Positions 2,118 to 7,984 of a DNA stretch of 64,000 nt are shown here, one piece after another. Within the stretch, counting starts at the first letter, position 1. The number at the start of each line of letters is the position of its first letter. The stretch is from NCBI GenBank assembly GCA_900313905.1, contig OMTG01000141.1:1-64000 (forward strand), in the 5' to 3' direction. The notes beneath the pieces are model-generated. The model did not search any database, was not told the DNA's origin, and saw only the letters and a list, made by a program, of their open reading frames with translations. This stretch comes from an uncultured Actinomycetes bacterium. Its GTDB lineage: Bacteria > Actinomycetota > Coriobacteriia > Coriobacteriales > Atopobiaceae. The translations under genes were made by a program, and so were the position numbers.

Positions 2118-2978
2118 ATGGCGTCAAAGAAGAAGGCCAAGGGTGCCGCGAAGGCGGAGAAGGAATCGAAGAAGGGCGCGCTCAGGAGCGCCGTGCATGC
2201 AAGCGTCGCTGCCAAGCGTGGGCAGCAGGATGAGAATCAGGACTCCTCCTACATGAAGGGGCCGATCCTCCTGCGCGGCAAGATGGTCCCGCAGAATACG
2301 ACATCCGGGAACCTGCTTGCGCCAGAGCGCGATACGGACTGGCTTCACGAAGATCCTTGGAGGGTGCTCCGCATTCAGGCAGAGTTCGTCGATGGCTTCG
2401 GCGCCTTGGCGGAGCTTGGCCCCGCCATCGCGGTCTTCGGCTCAGCCCGCACGGAGGAGGAGAGCCCCTTCTACCAGAAGGCCGAGGAGATCGGACGCCT
2501 TGCTGCCGAGCGGGGCTTTGCCGTGATCACGGGCGGCGGCCCGGGCATCATGGAGGCTGCGAACAAGGGCGCCTACGAGGCGGGAGGCACCTCGGTCGGA
2601 TTGGGGATCGAGCTTCCCTTCGAGGAGGCCCTCAACCAGTGGATCAACATCGGCATGGTGTTCCGCTACTTCTTCGTGCGCAAGACGATGTTCGTGAAGT
2701 ACTCCTCCGGCGCCATCGTCTGCCCCGGCGGATTCGGCACCTTGGATGAGCTCTTCGAGCTCGTGACCCTGATCCAGACCCACAAGGCGGACTATGCGCC
2801 GATCGTGCTTGTGGGCTGCGACTACTGGCAGGGGCTCCTGTCCTGGCTCGAGGGGTCCGTGCTCGAGGCAGGCAACATCTCGAAGGACGACCTCGACCGC
2901 CTCATCGTGACGGACGACCCCGAGAAGGCAGTCCGCATCGCGACGGGCGGCAAGCATGCCGCGCTGCCGCGTTCCTGA
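2118..2978 (+). CDS. LOG-family (TIGR00730) Rossmann-fold protein
   Basis: A 286-residue cytoplasmic protein. The two family signatures are present: GGGPGIMEAANKGA and PGGFGTLDE. Relatives are nucleotide 5'-monophosphate phosphoribohydrolases (LOG cytokinin-activating enzymes, bacterial YgdH/PpnN) that split AMP or other NMPs into base and ribose 5-phosphate; Arg and Glu of the second motif are the usual catalytic pair. A Lys/Ala-rich N-terminal stretch of about 30 residues precedes the domain. The start at 2118 follows GGAGAAGGAG; in-frame ATGs 18 and 27 nt upstream are less well placed. The exact substrate is not predictable. Confidence 0.82.
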   Translation: MASKKKAKGAAKAEKESKKGALRSAVHASVAAKRGQQDENQDSSYMKGPILLRGKMVPQNTTSGNLLAPERDTDWLHEDPWRVLRIQAEFVDGFGALAELGPAIAVFGSARTEEESPFYQKAEEIGRLAAERGFAVITGGGPGIMEAANKGAYEAGGTSVGLGIELPFEEALNQWINIGMVFRYFFVRKTMFVKYSSGAIVCPGGFGTLDELFELVTLIQTHKADYAPIVLVGCDYWQGLLSWLEGSVLEAGNISKDDLDRLIVTDDPEKAVRIATGGKHAALPRS

Positions 2979-2984
2979 TGCGAA

Positions 2985-3012
2985 GCCAGCAAGCTGAAAT
3001 GCCCCTGCTGGC
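2985..3012 (+). terminator. Weak hairpin after the LOG-family gene
   Basis: GCCAGCA and TGCTGGC pair across a 14-nt loop 7 nt after the stop codon. There is no T-run, so termination is uncertain. Confidence 0.3.
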
Positions 3013-3089
3013 TGGCGTGCATGCCTTCCTGCGTGGCATCTCGTAGCTATATCAATAATTTCAGAAGCATGAACGGGGACGCTCAAGGG

Positions 3090-3118
3090 TTGGTCTCCAT
3101 ACTTTACTGTGCTAAAGT
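3090..3118 (+). promoter_or_regulatory. Promoter of the amino-acid ABC operon
   Basis: TTGGTC, 17 nt, then TAAAGT with an extended TGC immediately before it (TGCTAAAGT). It lies about 50 nt upstream of the binding-protein gene in an otherwise empty, relatively AT-rich gap. Confidence 0.5.
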
Positions 3119-3166
3119 GAAGGCCCAGCATGGCATATCAAGCCACCCAATGAAAGGGGAGTCCCC

Positions 3167-4045
3167 ATGTCCACTATGAGCCGTCGCCAGTTCCTGGGCT
3201 TCGCCGGAGGCGCTGCCTCCTTTGCCGCGCTCGCGTCGCTTGCTGCCTGCGGCAGCAGCTCTTCGAGCTCAAATACCTCATCTTCGTCTGACAGCACGAG
3301 CAGCTCCTCGAGCTTCTCCGGCCCCTTCGTCCTGGGCTTCGACCAGGAGTTCCCGCCCTATGGCTATATCGGCGACGACGGCAACCCCACGGGCTTCGAT
3401 ATCGAGCTTGCCCAGGCGGTCTGCGACATGGAGGGCTGGGAGTTCAAGCCGACCCCCATCAACTGGGATTCGAAGGACGCGATGCTGAACTCCGGCCAGA
3501 TCACCTGCATCTGGAATGGCTTCACGATCGAGGGCCGCGAGGACGACTACGCCTTCACCGACCCCTACATGGAGAACCGCCAGGTCGTGGTCGTGCGTGC
3601 CGACTCCGGCATCGAGAGCCTCGCCGACCTCGCAGGCAAGAATGTGGCCACCCAGACCGACTCTGCCGCCTATTACCTCCTCGTCGATGGCGGCGACCAG
3701 GCAGACCTCGGCGCGACCTTCGCGAAGCTCGACACGATCGGCGAGTACAACACGGCCTTCATGATGCTCGAGCAGGGCACCTATGATGCGGTGGCCGTGG
3801 ACTACCCGGTCGCGGTCTACAACATCGGCAGCGACAGCACCTACAAGATCCTCGATGAGGCGCTGAACTCCGAGCACTTCGCGGTCGGCTTCAAGAAGGA
3901 CGACGCCGGCGCGGCGCTCGCCTCGACCGTCGAGGCGGACCTCCAGAAGCTCGACAGCGAGGGCAAGGTCGAGGAGATCTGCGAGAAGTACGCCGACCAG
4001 GGCGTCTCCTATACCGCCTGGTGCCTGCCGAAGGCAAGCGCATAA
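3167..4045 (+). CDS. Polar amino-acid ABC transporter, substrate-binding lipoprotein
   Basis: A 292-residue type-3 extracellular solute-binding protein. The N terminus has a twin-arginine motif (SRRQFLG at residues 5-11), a hydrophobic stretch and a lipobox LAAC, so it is probably exported by Tat and lipid-anchored. A Ser-rich linker of about 25 residues follows the cysteine. The mature domain has typical HisJ/GlnH features: FPPYGYIGDDGNPTGFDIEL near residue 60 and IWNGFTIEGRE. It is followed by permease and ATPase genes. The start at 3167 follows GGGGAG. Substrate (glutamine, cystine or other) is not predictable. Confidence 0.9.
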   Translation: MSTMSRRQFLGFAGGAASFAALASLAACGSSSSSSNTSSSSDSTSSSSSFSGPFVLGFDQEFPPYGYIGDDGNPTGFDIELAQAVCDMEGWEFKPTPINWDSKDAMLNSGQITCIWNGFTIEGREDDYAFTDPYMENRQVVVVRADSGIESLADLAGKNVATQTDSAAYYLLVDGGDQADLGATFAKLDTIGEYNTAFMMLEQGTYDAVAVDYPVAVYNIGSDSTYKILDEALNSEHFAVGFKKDDAGAALASTVEADLQKLDSEGKVEEICEKYADQGVSYTAWCLPKASA

Positions 4046-4074
4046 GGCGCATCCTTTTCCTGTATGTACGCTCA

Positions 4075-4103
4075 GCCGCGCGCTGCCAGAGGCGGTGCGC
4101 GGC
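4075..4103 (+). other. Intergenic hairpin between binding-protein and permease genes
   Basis: GCCGCGC and GCGCGGC form a 7-bp stem over a 15-nt loop. Such structures often raise binding-protein mRNA levels over those of downstream permease genes; that role is inferred here. Confidence 0.45.
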
Positions 4104-4125
4104 AGGTTCTTGTAGGTGATTGCCT

Positions 4126-4779
4126 GTGGATCTGAACACGATGGTGTCAATGCTGGCCTCGGGCTACGTGACGTCGCTGGAGATCTTCGCCCTGACGCTC
4201 CTGGGCTCGATCCCCCTCGGCATCCTCGTGGCCTTGGGGAGGCTCTCGCACGTGAAGCCGCTCTCCTTCATCGTGAAGCTCTATATCTCGATCATGCGCG
4301 GCACCCCGCTCATGCTCCAGATGTTCGCGGTCTTCTTCCTCCCGTATTACGGCTTCGGCATCTCCACGGGCACCGACTACATGTTCACGGCCTGCATCAT
4401 CTCCTTCATCGTGAACTATGCGGCCTACTTTGCCGAGATCTACCGCGCCGGCATCCAGTCGATCCCCCACGGCCAGTATGAGGCAGCAGAGGTGCTGGGC
4501 TACACCTCGGGCCAGACCTTCTTCCGCATCATCCTGCCCCAGATGTTCAAGCGCATCCTCCCTGCCATGGGCAACGAGATCGTGACGCTCGTGAAGGACA
4601 CCTCCCTTGCCTTCTCCATCGGCGTGGCCGAGATGTTCACGGTCGGACGCGCCCTGGTCGCAAGCCAGCGCAACATGATCCCCTTCGCGATCGCAGCCAT
4701 CTTCTACTGGGTGACCTGCCTCCTGATCGAGTTCATCATGCGCCAGATCGAGAAGAAGCTGGATTACTACCATGACTAA
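4126..4779 (+). CDS. Polar amino-acid ABC transporter permease
   Basis: A 217-residue inner-membrane protein of the HisM/GlnP family with about five hydrophobic helices. The EAA loop that docks the ATPase is visible as QYEAAEVLGYTSGQTFFRIILP. The family N-terminal motif RGTPLMLQ is present at about residues 58-65. The start was set at the GTG at 4126, because AGGTGA lies 6 nt upstream; a TTG at 4120 abuts that site and is too close. The 3' end overlaps the ATPase gene by 8 nt, implying coupled translation. Confidence 0.9.
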   Translation: MDLNTMVSMLASGYVTSLEIFALTLLGSIPLGILVALGRLSHVKPLSFIVKLYISIMRGTPLMLQMFAVFFLPYYGFGISTGTDYMFTACIISFIVNYAAYFAEIYRAGIQSIPHGQYEAAEVLGYTSGQTFFRIILPQMFKRILPAMGNEIVTLVKDTSLAFSIGVAEMFTVGRALVASQRNMIPFAIAAIFYWVTCLLIEFIMRQIEKKLDYYHD

Positions 4780-5536
4780 GAGCGATATAGCCGTCAGCTT
4801 CACCGGGGCCTTCAAGGCCTTCGGCTCCAAAGAGGTCCTGCACGGCGTCGATTTCGAGATCGGCAAGGGTGAGGTCGTCTCCCTGATCGGGCCTTCCGGT
4901 GCCGGCAAGTCCACGATGCTGCGCTGCCTCACGCTGCTCGAGACCTTGGATGCCGGGCGCATCGCCTACGGCGATACGGTCGTCTGCGAAGGCGAGAAGA
5001 AGGCCGTCTACAGCAAGGCTGCCATGCAGCAGGCGCGCATGCGCTTCGGCCTCGTCTTCCAGGACTACAACCTCTTCCCGCACCGCACCGTCCTCCAGAA
5101 CGTGATGGATGCCCCGCTTGTCGTGCAGCATCGCCAGGAGGAAGAGGTGGCAAAGCAGGCCCGCGACCTCCTTGCGCGCCTTGGCCTCGAGGACAAGGAG
5201 GACTATGTCCCCTGCCAGCTCTCGGGTGGCCAGCAGCAGCGTGTGGCGATCGCCCGCGCCCTCTGCATGAACCCGGAGGTCATGTATTTCGACGAGGCGA
5301 CCAGCGCCCTCGACCCGAAGCTCACGAAGGACATGCATGACCTGATTCGCCAGCTTGCCGGCGAAGGCATGGCTGTCGGGATCGTGACCCACGAGATGGG
5401 TTTCGCAGAGACGGTCTCCGACCGCATCTGCCTGCTCTTCGATGGGCAGGTCGTCGAGAATGGCACGCCCCAGCAGGTGATGGAGCACCCGACCGACCCC
5501 CGCACCCGTGCCTTCCTGGACCTCGCGACGGACTGA
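4772..5536 (+). CDS. Polar amino-acid ABC transporter ATP-binding protein (GlnQ/HisP type)
   Basis: A 254-residue ATPase with Walker A GPSGAGKST, signature LSGGQQQR, Walker B VMYFDEATSALDP and H-loop THEMGFA, all as expected for the polar amino-acid class. The ATG at 4772 lies within the end of the permease gene. Its stop codon overlaps by one base the start of the GIY-YIG gene, so the latter is probably translated with the transporter. Confidence 0.92.
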   Translation: MTKSDIAVSFTGAFKAFGSKEVLHGVDFEIGKGEVVSLIGPSGAGKSTMLRCLTLLETLDAGRIAYGDTVVCEGEKKAVYSKAAMQQARMRFGLVFQDYNLFPHRTVLQNVMDAPLVVQHRQEEEVAKQARDLLARLGLEDKEDYVPCQLSGGQQQRVAIARALCMNPEVMYFDEATSALDPKLTKDMHDLIRQLAGEGMAVGIVTHEMGFAETVSDRICLLFDGQVVENGTPQQVMEHPTDPRTRAFLDLATD

Positions 5537-6180
5537 TGGGGAGAAGGAAGAGCGGAAAGCCAAGCCGCGCAGCACGTGTCCTGAAGCTCCTGCTCGCCCT
5601 CTGGGCGGCGGGAGCTGTTTGTGGCTTCATGCAGCTGATGGGGGAGCAGGGTCCTGACTGGGACGATCCTGAGGCGCTCGCCTTGGCAGCAGAGGCTGCC
5701 GTGGATGGGACCATGCAGCCCGCGCTCACGGCGCTCCTTCTCGTCTGTGCCCTCTGGGCCGCAGGGCTTGCCTTCATCCACAGCCGGCCCAAGCGGCGCA
5801 TCCGCCGTCTCTCCCAGGGCACCCGCGCCATCACGCCCGACGAGTTCTTCCGCCTCCGCAATGGCGGCGGCACCCGGGGACGCTCCGAGGTGCTTGCCCG
5901 GGACTTCCCTGGCATCTACATCCTCGAGAACGAGGACCGGAAGATGTGCTATGTCGGGCAGGCTACCCAGGTGATGGGGAGGGTGAACCAGCATCTCACC
6001 GGCAAGGGCAATGGCGATGTCTATGCGGACTACGTGCAGGGAGACCGCTTCCGGATCCGCATGATTGCGCTTGCAGGCTCGGGCTATCGCGACCTCGATG
6101 CGATGGAACGCGATGCAATTGCCTGCTATCACGCCTACGACGAGGGCTATAACAGGACGAGGGGCAACCGTCCGGCGTAG
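5536..6180 (+). CDS. Membrane-anchored GIY-YIG domain protein
   Basis: A 214-residue protein with two predicted membrane helices (about residues 15-32 and 62-81), a basic stretch (RPKRRIRR), then a GIY-YIG domain from about residue 125. The catalytic landmarks look intact: GIYIL, then YVG 10 residues later, Arg in RVNQHL, Glu in AMERDA and Asn in GYNRT. GIY-YIG domains cut DNA phosphodiester bonds in UvrC, homing endonucleases and relatives; the substrate of this membrane form is unknown. The ATG overlaps the stop of the transporter ATPase gene by one base. Domain call is firm; function is not. Confidence 0.75.
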   Translation: MGRRKSGKPSRAARVLKLLLALWAAGAVCGFMQLMGEQGPDWDDPEALALAAEAAVDGTMQPALTALLLVCALWAAGLAFIHSRPKRRIRRLSQGTRAITPDEFFRLRNGGGTRGRSEVLARDFPGIYILENEDRKMCYVGQATQVMGRVNQHLTGKGNGDVYADYVQGDRFRIRMIALAGSGYRDLDAMERDAIACYHAYDEGYNRTRGNRPA

Positions 6181-6276
6181 ACGCCGGCCGTTCATGGAGA
6201 GCCACCTTCCGTTCAATTGGCCACCCGGTACACTTGAGATGTACGAAGGTGCCTGCATGAAGGAAAGGATCGCTTC

Positions 6277-6552
6277 ATGGCTGAAGAAGATGAGATTGAG
6301 TACATCACGCTTGACTACGAAGATGGAACTTCCGAGGAATGCGAGGTCCTGGGCGTCTTCGAGAGCGGCGACGGCGAATATGTGGCGCTCTCGCCCGATA
6401 CGCATCCCGAGGATGTCTACCTCTACGTCTATAACGAGACAGACGATGGGGACTTCTACGTGACAGAGATTCCTGATGCCGACTACGACCAGGTGTCGGC
6501 TGATTTCGATGACCTCTGGTTCAGCGACATCGATGAGGACGATCCTGAATAG
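6277..6552 (+). CDS. DUF1292 family small acidic protein
   Basis: A 91-residue, strongly acidic protein. The pattern ITLDYEDGTSEECEVLGVFESGDGEYVAL, followed by VYLYVYNE, is the hallmark of DUF1292 (YrzB-like) proteins common in Firmicutes and Coriobacteriia; their function is unknown. The ribosome site is AGGAAAGGA about 9 nt upstream. It is followed by a strong terminator. Confidence 0.8.
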   Translation: MAEEDEIEYITLDYEDGTSEECEVLGVFESGDGEYVALSPDTHPEDVYLYVYNETDDGDFYVTEIPDADYDQVSADFDDLWFSDIDEDDPE

Positions 6553-6576
6553 GGGAGCCTGTCAGAAGAGAGCAGT

Positions 6577-6614
6577 AAGGCCGGATGGCGCGATGCCGTC
6601 CGGCCTTCTTCGTT
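6577..6614. terminator. Bidirectional intrinsic terminator
   Basis: AAGGCCGGATGGC and GCCGTCCGGCCTT form a 13-bp stem with a 5-nt loop (one wobble), followed by CTTCGTTT on the + strand. It sits between the convergent DUF1292 and HAD genes. Confidence 0.8.
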
Positions 6615-6631
6615 TAGGGAGAGAATTGTCT

Positions 6632-7378
6632 CTAGCGCTGCACGATCGCCTTCACCAGATCGCGGAGCTCGGATGCGGTGTGCACCTCATAGTCTGCAGG
6701 GAACTGGTCGGTGGGGGCGGGGCGGAGCCGGTGGTTGAACCAGATGACCGGCATATGGACAGAATGGGCGCCCAGGACATCGATCGCGAAGGCATCCCCG
6801 ATATAGAGGCAGTCTGAGGGCTTGGCCTTGAAGTGGTCGCAGGCTATCTGGAAGAGCTCGGGCTGGGGCTTCGCATAGCCCAGGGCATCGGAGATGAAGA
6901 TCTCATCTGGTGCAATCCAGCGATCGAGGCCCAGGATCTTCATCTTGGAGCGCTGCGGAGGCTCTTTGCCGTTCGTGATGATGCCGCAGCCAAGGCGGGT
7001 GTGGGAGCTGCACCAGTCGAGCGTCTCCACGATCTCAGGCGCCAGCTTCATTGCATCCTTCGATTCGGCCCCATAGGCATGCTGGAGGGCGAGCGCCGTA
7101 TCAGGATCGATCTTCACGCCGTAGTGGCCAAGCGTCAGCTGCATGCGGCGGATGTACATCGCATCGGTCGGGTGCTCATCGCGGCGGAAGGCTGCGAAGA
7201 TCTCCTGGGAGTAGCGGCGGCTCGTCTCGAAGAGGTCGGTCGCCGTGACGCCGGGAATCGGGCCCAGGATCTTTCTGACCGCGTAGCCGAAGGGCGCTGC
7301 CTGGTCATAGAGCGTATCGTCCAGGTCGAAGAAGACCACATCGCGCTGGGGAAGTGCTGCTGGATCGTGCCCGCTCAT
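6632..7378 (-). CDS. HAD-superfamily hydrolase (YjjG-like)
   Basis: A 248-residue phosphatase-type protein. HAD motif I is FFDLDDTLYD (nucleophile and acid/base Asp), motif II is GIITNGK, motif III Lys lies in GYAKPQPELF, and motif IV is YIGDAFAIDV. The helical cap between motifs I and II is of the C1 type seen in pyrimidine-nucleotidase YjjG and related house-cleaning phosphatases. The start at 7378 follows AGGAG 8-9 nt upstream. Substrate is not predictable. It is the only minus-strand gene between 2 and 58 kb. Confidence 0.85.
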   Translation of the reverse strand: MSGHDPAALPQRDVVFFDLDDTLYDQAAPFGYAVRKILGPIPGVTATDLFETSRRYSQEIFAAFRRDEHPTDAMYIRRMQLTLGHYGVKIDPDTALALQHAYGAESKDAMKLAPEIVETLDWCSSHTRLGCGIITNGKEPPQRSKMKILGLDRWIAPDEIFISDALGYAKPQPELFQIACDHFKAKPSDCLYIGDAFAIDVLGAHSVHMPVIWFNHRLRPAPTDQFPADYEVHTASELRDLVKAIVQR

Positions 7379-7489
7379 AGGGGATGCTCCTGTATCTAAA
7401 TAGTGAATGGTGAGCTATAAATGATGTATTCTTGTTAGGATAGCCTGCGTGGTACGGTAAAACCGTTCTGCAACACTGATAGTACCAAT

Positions 7490-7519
7490 TTGCCTGCAGA
7501 TTGTTTCTGTGGGTATAGT
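7490..7519 (+). promoter_or_regulatory. Candidate promoter for tatA
   Basis: TTGCCT, 18 nt, TATAGT, about 100 nt before tatA, in the AT-rich gap between the divergent HAD and tatA genes. A second -10-like TATACT at 7562 lacks a good -35. Confidence 0.4.
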
Positions 7520-7621
7520 GACCGGTTGGCTGCTCGCGATGCATCCTTGCAGTGGTCCGGCTATACTATGGTGCTCGTAGCAAAATCTCCGCAGAGGCGG
7601 AGAGTGAAAGAGAGGGACCGC

Positions 7622-7924
7622 ATGAACCTCGGACCACTGGAAATCATCGTAATCCTCATCGTCGCCCTGCTCATCTTCGGGCCCAAGAACCTGCCGAAGC
7701 TCGGCAGCGCCCTTGGCAAGACCGTGAAGAATGTCCGCGAGGGCATGGAGGGCGACGACGACAAGAAGGACGACAAGAAGGCCACTGAGACCGAGGCTTC
7801 CATCGAGGATGCCGACGCCGAGGACAGCTCCGAGGAGGACGTGCAGTACTGCCCGAAGTGCGGCGCCAAGAACCCGGCTGGCAACGCCTTCTGCGCAAAG
7901 TGCGGCGCCAAGCTCGGCGAGTAG
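7622..7924 (+). CDS. tatA: Twin-arginine translocase subunit TatA with C-terminal zinc ribbon
   Basis: A 100-residue protein. Residues 1-20 form the TatA membrane helix; FGPKNLPKLGSALGKTVKNVREGM is the classical hinge and amphipathic helix (FGP motif). An acidic linker follows, and the last 25 residues contain CPKC...CAKC with 10 residues between the pairs, a zinc-ribbon knuckle. TatA forms the pore-like assembly of the Tat system that exports folded proteins; the zinc ribbon is not part of standard TatA. No TatC is in the window. The start at 7622 follows GAGAGGGA. The Tat-type signal on the lipoprotein at 3167 is a plausible client. Confidence 0.85.
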   Translation: MNLGPLEIIVILIVALLIFGPKNLPKLGSALGKTVKNVREGMEGDDDKKDDKKATETEASIEDADAEDSSEEDVQYCPKCGAKNPAGNAFCAKCGAKLGE

Positions 7925-7984
7925 CCTCGATTCAGCCGGAGGTCCGGCACAGAAGTCCCGCATCAGGTCGTGAGAAAGCAGAGC

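Follow-up and report, generated by a model that had tools for sequence, protein, structure and literature searches.

A locus in the window, by which we mean the whole 64,000-nucleotide stretch of DNA analysed from an uncultured Atopobiaceae bacterium, raises the question of why a nuclease-like protein with membrane helices should be encoded directly behind the ATPase of an amino-acid importer, and what such a protein would do at the membrane. All window features described below lie on the forward strand.

A membrane-anchored GIY-YIG protein encoded behind an importer

The gene at 5536–6180 encodes a protein of 214 amino acids, described here from its ORF, Pfam, a family alignment and a structure model. 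The protein passes the Pfam GIY-YIG model PF01541 (28.4 bits, where the gathering score is 22.6; E 2e-6), and its domain at residues about 125–206 (5908–6153), delimited by Pfam, alignment and fold, carries the catalytic landmarks G126-I-Y128, Y139-V-G141, R149, H153, E191 and N206. Two predicted hydrophobic segments precede the domain, at residues 18–36 (5587–5643) and 63–81 (5722–5778), and coincide with helices 11–38 and 45–95 of an AlphaFold2 model (28 sequences, mean pLDDT 90.2), in which a GIY-YIG fold follows the helices. The top structural match of the model is the catalytic domain of I-TevI (Z 9.0, 85 residues, rmsd 3.2), with further matches to the UvrC N-domain (Z 7.7), T4 EndoII (Z 7.7) and R.Eco29kI (Z 7.0). 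By domain score, six catalytic positions and fold, the protein belongs to the GIY-YIG superfamily, and its residues imply a putative nuclease activity. The two helices and the GIY, YVG, Arg, Glu and Asn landmarks that an earlier note had read from the sequence were thus confirmed; the invariant H153 and the family signature GNGDVYADY (residues 158–166, 6007–6033), recognized in the family alignment, are landmarks beyond those that it named. Because a basic stretch, HSRPKRRIRR (5779–5808), directly follows the second segment, the nuclease domain is predicted by the positive-inside rule to lie in the cytosol. Identity with UvrC or Cho was rejected, as the NCBIfam equivalog uvrC gives 14.2 bits against a cut-off of 285.45. 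No described defence protein in PADLOC-DB was matched over most of its length, and the matches obtained there were confined to the GIY core (PDC-S14, 1e-5; UzuA, 1e-3).

Upstream lie the genes for a family 3 substrate-binding protein (3167–4045, PF00497), a permease (4120–4779, PF00528 and TIGR01726) and an ATPase (4772–5536, PF00005) of a polar amino-acid ABC importer, whose best NCBIfam relatives are importers of cystine, glutamine and similar polar amino acids, all under their equivalog cut-offs. The ATPase stop and the GIY-YIG start overlap as TGATG (5534–5538), in which the TGA (5534–5536) and the ATG (5536–5538) have a single base in common, precisely as had been reported. A gene for a DUF1292 protein (6277–6552, PF06949) follows 96 bp 3' of the GIY-YIG gene, and a terminator-like hairpin of 14 pairs (6577–6607, a pattern match only) closes the gene run. 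Pattern searches detected neither a sigma-70-like promoter across 2950–6700 nor a strong terminator-like hairpin between the ATPase and GIY-YIG genes; weak six-pair hairpins were matched at 5260 inside the ATPase gene and at 5593 inside the GIY-YIG gene, again as pattern matches only. A stable, GC-rich hairpin, likewise a pattern match only, lies between the binding-protein and permease genes (4075–4103); such hairpins often occur where the binding protein is produced in excess. The overlap makes it probable that, in the window's genus, translation of the GIY-YIG gene is coupled to that of the ATPase gene.

The importer link is confined to one genus

The order binding protein, permease, ATPase, GIY-YIG is conserved in all three genomes of the window's genus that were examined, and in the other two (G001 and G002) the run continues with DUF1292 and HAD genes as in the window. 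The overlap is the same one-base TGATG in G001 and a four-base ATGA in G002. In G013, a member of another genus, the GIY-YIG gene lies shortly 5' of TatA-like, GreA, LysS and ClpC genes, as it does in the window, and the amino-acid transporter sits on a different contig. The corresponding window genes are ones that we take, from sequence features, to be TatA-like, GreA, LysS and ClpC, and the last three labels were matched by BLAST for this comparison. The gene pair, sought in other genomes, is present in all three genomes of the genus, and G013 carries the GIY-YIG gene at the corresponding locus but lacks the transporter there.

Among the transporters of 18 other relatives, none is followed by a GIY-YIG gene at its ATPase end, with the downstream sequence in one case (L117) too short to judge. 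Only one locus outside the window's genus adjoins a polar amino-acid transporter: in an unrelated Eubacterium MAG (L054), binding-protein, permease and ATPase genes (4872–7937) begin 197 bp downstream of the GIY-YIG gene on the same strand, an adjacency that by rough estimate is at about chance level. Since the arrangement holds in 3/3 genomes of the genus, in 0/18 relatives and elsewhere only at L054, the transporter link is a genus-level arrangement, real but local. The link to amino-acid uptake that the earlier note had left unexplained thus stands for the window's genus and falls as a property of the family; a family-wide link was dropped in favour of one limited to the genus and the unrelated L054 adjacency.

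These data bear on whether the protein regulates the importer or is a partner in its assembly, the nuclease domain being used to bind or to turn over mRNA locally. Gene order and overlap, conserved in 3/3 genomes of the genus, are what such a role would predict, but the GIY-YIG gene is beside 0/18 of the other relatives' transporters, G013 has both genes apart, and the two proteins evolve at different rates. Between the window and G001, the GIY-YIG gene shows a dN of 0.383 (dS 0.85) and the ATPase gene a dN of 0.087 (dS 0.86), which makes the evolution of the GIY-YIG protein roughly fourfold faster than that of its supposed partner. We therefore regard a partnership with the importer as very unlikely.

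Conservation and architecture of the family

In a family alignment of 79 rows, the catalytic positions are nearly invariant: Y128 in 77/77, Y139 in 79/79, R149 in 78/79, H153 in 79/79, E191 in 77/78 and N206 in 77/77. The signature is near-invariant too, with G158, N159, G160, D161, V162 and Y163 each present in 78/79 rows and A164 and D165 in 79/79. All six catalytic residues are intact in 75 rows; the exceptions are L079, L080 and L083, which are short or broken, and L009. The earlier note had named orthologues located away from transporters and lacking the catalytic residues as the finding that would speak against it; orthologues without a transporter do exist, but the second part does not hold, all six catalytic residues being intact in 75/79.

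An N-terminal membrane segment is predicted in 71 of the 79 rows (63 with one segment, eight with two), and in 68 of these 71 anchored members the C-terminal domain is predicted to be cytosolic because K/R residues are more numerous behind the last segment than ahead of it, with two ties and one opposite case. Most of the eight rows without a segment (L007, L035, L047, L069, L078, L080, L082 and L083) are short ORFs, and L007 is the G053 copy, which carries an in-frame TAA in its anchor part. Mycoplasmatota may read TGA as Trp, in which case translation with table 11 would cut such ORFs short. About four segments were judged by eye in the anchor of G154 (L133), as were the segments of four members from viral contigs (L137–L140), and the anchors of the family range from one to four N-terminal membrane segments. 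Ten loci (L064, L066, L067, L068, L070, L071, L075, L076, L077 and L140) encode long forms with a helical part between the membrane segment and the nuclease. The long-form alignment took in nine loci and the model reached a pLDDT of 84.2; a Foldseek search of the whole long form against the PDB gave no match at E 0.001 or better, and because its top rows were GIY-YIG domains, the helical part was given no identity.

Two groups of diverged relatives were also observed. Degenerate copies in another family of the order (L164, 5221–5811; L165, 5364–5954; L166, 4921–5421; L167, 4969–5472) have GIF for GIY, Gln for the invariant His, Lys for the catalytic Glu or no counterpart to it, and no GYN; they represent a homologue that is anchored in the membrane and probably inactive. 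A distant Coriobacteriia subfamily (L136, 6009–6866; L170, L172, L173, L174 and L175) keeps G.GN.DVYAD, the Glu and the Asn and is without the Arg and His, and most of its members have an Ala/Gly-rich N-terminal part. An HsdR gene of type I restriction is found close to L136.

Distribution and evolution

A scan of species genomes identified 73 loci in Clostridia, Erysipelotrichia, Bacilli, Mycoplasmatota bins and a few Actinomycetota, and the family is centred mostly on Bacillota and Coriobacteriia with a patchy, sparse spread. One short match of the scan was on a contig of a Thermoplasmata archaeon MAG (L084, 283–453). A search of 100 genomes of relatives gave 11 matches, two of which (2e-4 and 3e-4, both to ORFs of some 570 amino acids) were left out, the remaining nine including the window's own genome. 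The family is present in 13/121 genomes and 11/35 genera of the window's taxonomic family, in 35/395 genomes and 23/123 genera of its order when weak and degenerate relatives are counted, and in 2/148 genomes of the taxonomic family of Ruminococcus bicirculans, one of these being a match of 37 columns only.

The phylogenetic tree comprises 82 rows (the short L079, L080, L082 and L083 were dropped and seven rows added), rests on few columns and leaves many forks open. Taxonomic classes are intermingled in it, and vertical descent with loss is compatible with its topology. Between the window and G002, identity is 27% in the anchor (residues 1–95) and 64% in the nuclease part; constraint, as measured on these sequences, falls on the nuclease, and the anchor changes fast. 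No description of this family was found in the open-access papers searched.

Genomic neighbourhoods

Across 71 loci, no recurrent neighbour was found save in near-identical clades and in the form of generic ABC ATPases. A sample of 116 near neighbours, hand-picked mostly at one per side out of 263 and leaving out the near-copies L022, L023, L028, L032, L042, L046 and L053 as well as the window's genus, showed no clear enrichment of conserved neighbours, defence islands or phage neighbourhoods when judged without a random-gene baseline. PADLOC matches among them were few and partly generic, and PHROG matches were mainly to housekeeping functions. Most loci thus have ordinary neighbours and no defence or phage gene, which is the main weakness of a defence reading.

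Several loci do have such neighbours. Nine loci were matched on viral contigs, four of them clear members of the family: L139 comes next after endolysin and tail genes, L138 lies between holin and integrase genes with a KAP NTPase gene also in the interval, L137 follows a C5 DNA methylase within a DnaB-helicase region, and L140, which is of the long form, was found on a contig of 290 kb. L138 and the bacterial locus L036 are one and the same piece of DNA. In G022 (L091, 4705–6300 and 6297–9194), an MmeI-type restriction-modification gene, the GIY-YIG gene (with a four-base overlap) and a gene for an Mrr_cat protein that begins with a hydrophobic stretch form a three-gene run that is possibly a composite defence operon, and in G053 an MmeI-type gene lies just 5' of the GIY-YIG gene. 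The two MmeI proteins share 43% identity. MmeI methyltransferases over the cut-off occur in 36/121 genomes of the window's taxonomic family, and adjacency in 2/13, by our judgement, exceeds the chance expectation.

The ordinary neighbourhoods suit a housekeeping enzyme that acts on nucleic acid at the membrane, for example in repair or in plasmid or RNA processing, and has no role in defence. The gene is chromosomal with mostly ordinary neighbours, its position is stable across two genera, and it occurs in Mycoplasmatota bins too. Against it, the gene is missing from 108/121 genomes of the window's taxonomic family and from 146/148 of another, and some members lie on phage contigs; we consider this explanation unlikely. 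A nuclease for the uptake or use of external DNA, in competence or nutrition, would agree with the membrane location and with the occurrence in Mycoplasmatota bins, but the domain is predicted to be cytosolic and the recurrent neighbours show no competence genes, which makes this the most improbable of the explanations considered.

Relationship to known GIY-YIG proteins and membrane defences

The closest soluble relatives, 31–35% identical, are encoded in SPbeta-like phages and plasmids, one of them directly after thymidylate synthase. Soluble proteins of the SPbeta type (SPbetaL1 and BUCT082) share the same extended domain, which reaches from the TPEEF linker through to GYN.RGN (profile E 5e-28), but have no membrane segment that was seen, an extra C-terminal part, and variants such as GNDRVYEDF in place of GNGDVYADY. 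Several family members match PHROG homing-endonuclease families. Because the closest soluble relatives belong to phages and plasmids and because of these PHROG matches, an origin of the anchored enzyme from such proteins is suggested. I-TevI, the UvrC N-domain, T4 EndoII and R.Eco29kI share the GIY-YIG fold with the window protein, but they are soluble, have other domains and functions, and match it weakly in sequence.

Such an ancestry could mean that the gene survives chiefly as a selfish or mobile element, descended from a GIY-YIG homing endonuclease, with an incidental membrane segment. Besides the phage and plasmid relatives (including the one after thymidylate synthase) and the PHROG matches, this explanation is favoured by one Clostridia clade (L018, L028, L021, L022, L023 and L032), in which the GIY-YIG gene starts 75–121 bp after tRNA-Leu genes with two different anticodons; at L059, the gene lies 169 bp after a tRNA-Arg gene. 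An anchor in 71/79 members would nevertheless hinder homing, no insertion site common to the family was seen, and tRNA-end repeats flanking the GIY-YIG gene were sought and not found. Persistence as a selfish gene is thus quite unlikely.

The nearest functional precedent is SNIPE, described as a membrane-bound nuclease of TM-DUF4041-GIY-YIG architecture that cleaves phage DNA during injection, associates with the nutrient permease ManYZ and becomes toxic when the anchor is missing (PMC13190303). In SNIPE, DUF4041 is required for defence and binds the phage tape measure protein, one or two segments are predicted in 66% of the homologues, so that the anchor is not universal, and the anchor sequence is varied and the nuclease the most conserved part (PMC13190303). 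Like SNIPE as described there, the window protein is a single protein with a varied N-terminal anchor, a nuclease predicted to be cytosolic and best conservation in the nuclease. In contrast to SNIPE, the window protein is without DUF4041, its nuclease is not of the T5orf172/MUG113 type, and its anti-phage role is putative. A search of the window protein for DUF4041 (PF13250) gave no match at E 1, and the domain was detected in a positive control (L119, a relative's protein); the T5orf172/MUG113 domain, present in L119, was not among the window protein's matches, and hhalign against this DUF4041 protein returned a probability of 0.2. Membership of SNIPE was rejected on these domain grounds. 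The window protein, therefore, is not SNIPE, and it may work like SNIPE. Zorya and Kiwa are likewise membrane-located defences against incoming phage DNA, but they are multi-protein systems with components unrelated to the GIY-YIG protein (PMC12904381).

A proposed role in entry defence

We put at about one half the probability that the family is a minimal membrane-tethered entry-defence nuclease, with both the nuclease activity and the anti-phage function being putative. The predicted two-helix hairpin would hold the GIY-YIG domain against the cytosolic face of the membrane, and this tether would keep the nuclease off the nucleoid and position it where phage or other foreign DNA leaves the membrane. 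Self would then be told from non-self by location and not by sequence, as in SNIPE. In the window's genus, the importer operon would have captured the GIY-YIG gene as a cistron. Membership of the operon would at the least tie the dose of the protein to that of a membrane importer, and it may also station the protein near the permease, any contact between the two being presumed.

Counted in favour of entry defence are the intact active site (75/79), the anchor (71/79) and the cytosolic charge pattern (68/71); the patchy spread (13/121, 35/395 and 2/148) together with the lack of a recurrent neighbour in 71 loci; the members on viral contigs (L137–L140) and the MmeI-type restriction-modification neighbours in G022 and G053; a variable anchor joined to a conserved nuclease (27% versus 64%), as reported for SNIPE; and the higher dN of the GIY-YIG gene (0.383, against 0.087 for the ATPase gene) at equal dS. 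Against it are counted the absence of defence or phage neighbours at most loci; the stable chromosomal residence in the window's genus and at the G013 locus, which also suits housekeeping; the small number of viral contigs matched (only nine), with L138 being L036 DNA; the lack of DUF4041, which SNIPE needs for defence; the in-frame TAA in the anchor part of the G053 copy; and the fast evolution, which equally fits weak constraint. Action on incoming DNA, as proposed in the earlier note, is accordingly plausible, given the SNIPE precedent, the predicted cytosolic domain in 68/71 members, the patchy spread, the members on phage or prophage contigs and the two with an MmeI-type neighbour.

A more far-reaching reading, which we think unlikely, is that these proteins constitute a class of minimal defence nucleases at the membrane that has gone undescribed and would have arisen from homing-type GIY-YIG enzymes independently of SNIPE. 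Their interchangeable anchors would consist of one, two or four segments or else combine a segment with a helical domain, and co-translation would station the member in the window's genus at an amino-acid permease which phages exploit, or come close to, in bringing DNA through the membrane, like SNIPE at ManYZ.

If the family does act in entry defence, SNIPE would not be a one-off, membrane tethering of GIY-YIG enzymes would be a recurrent way to separate foreign from own DNA by place, and place-based discrimination would here work without DUF4041. The protein is small, which allows direct tests by exchanging its anchor, linker and nuclease, and the operon of the window's genus offers a testable case of a guard nuclease made alongside a nutrient importer.
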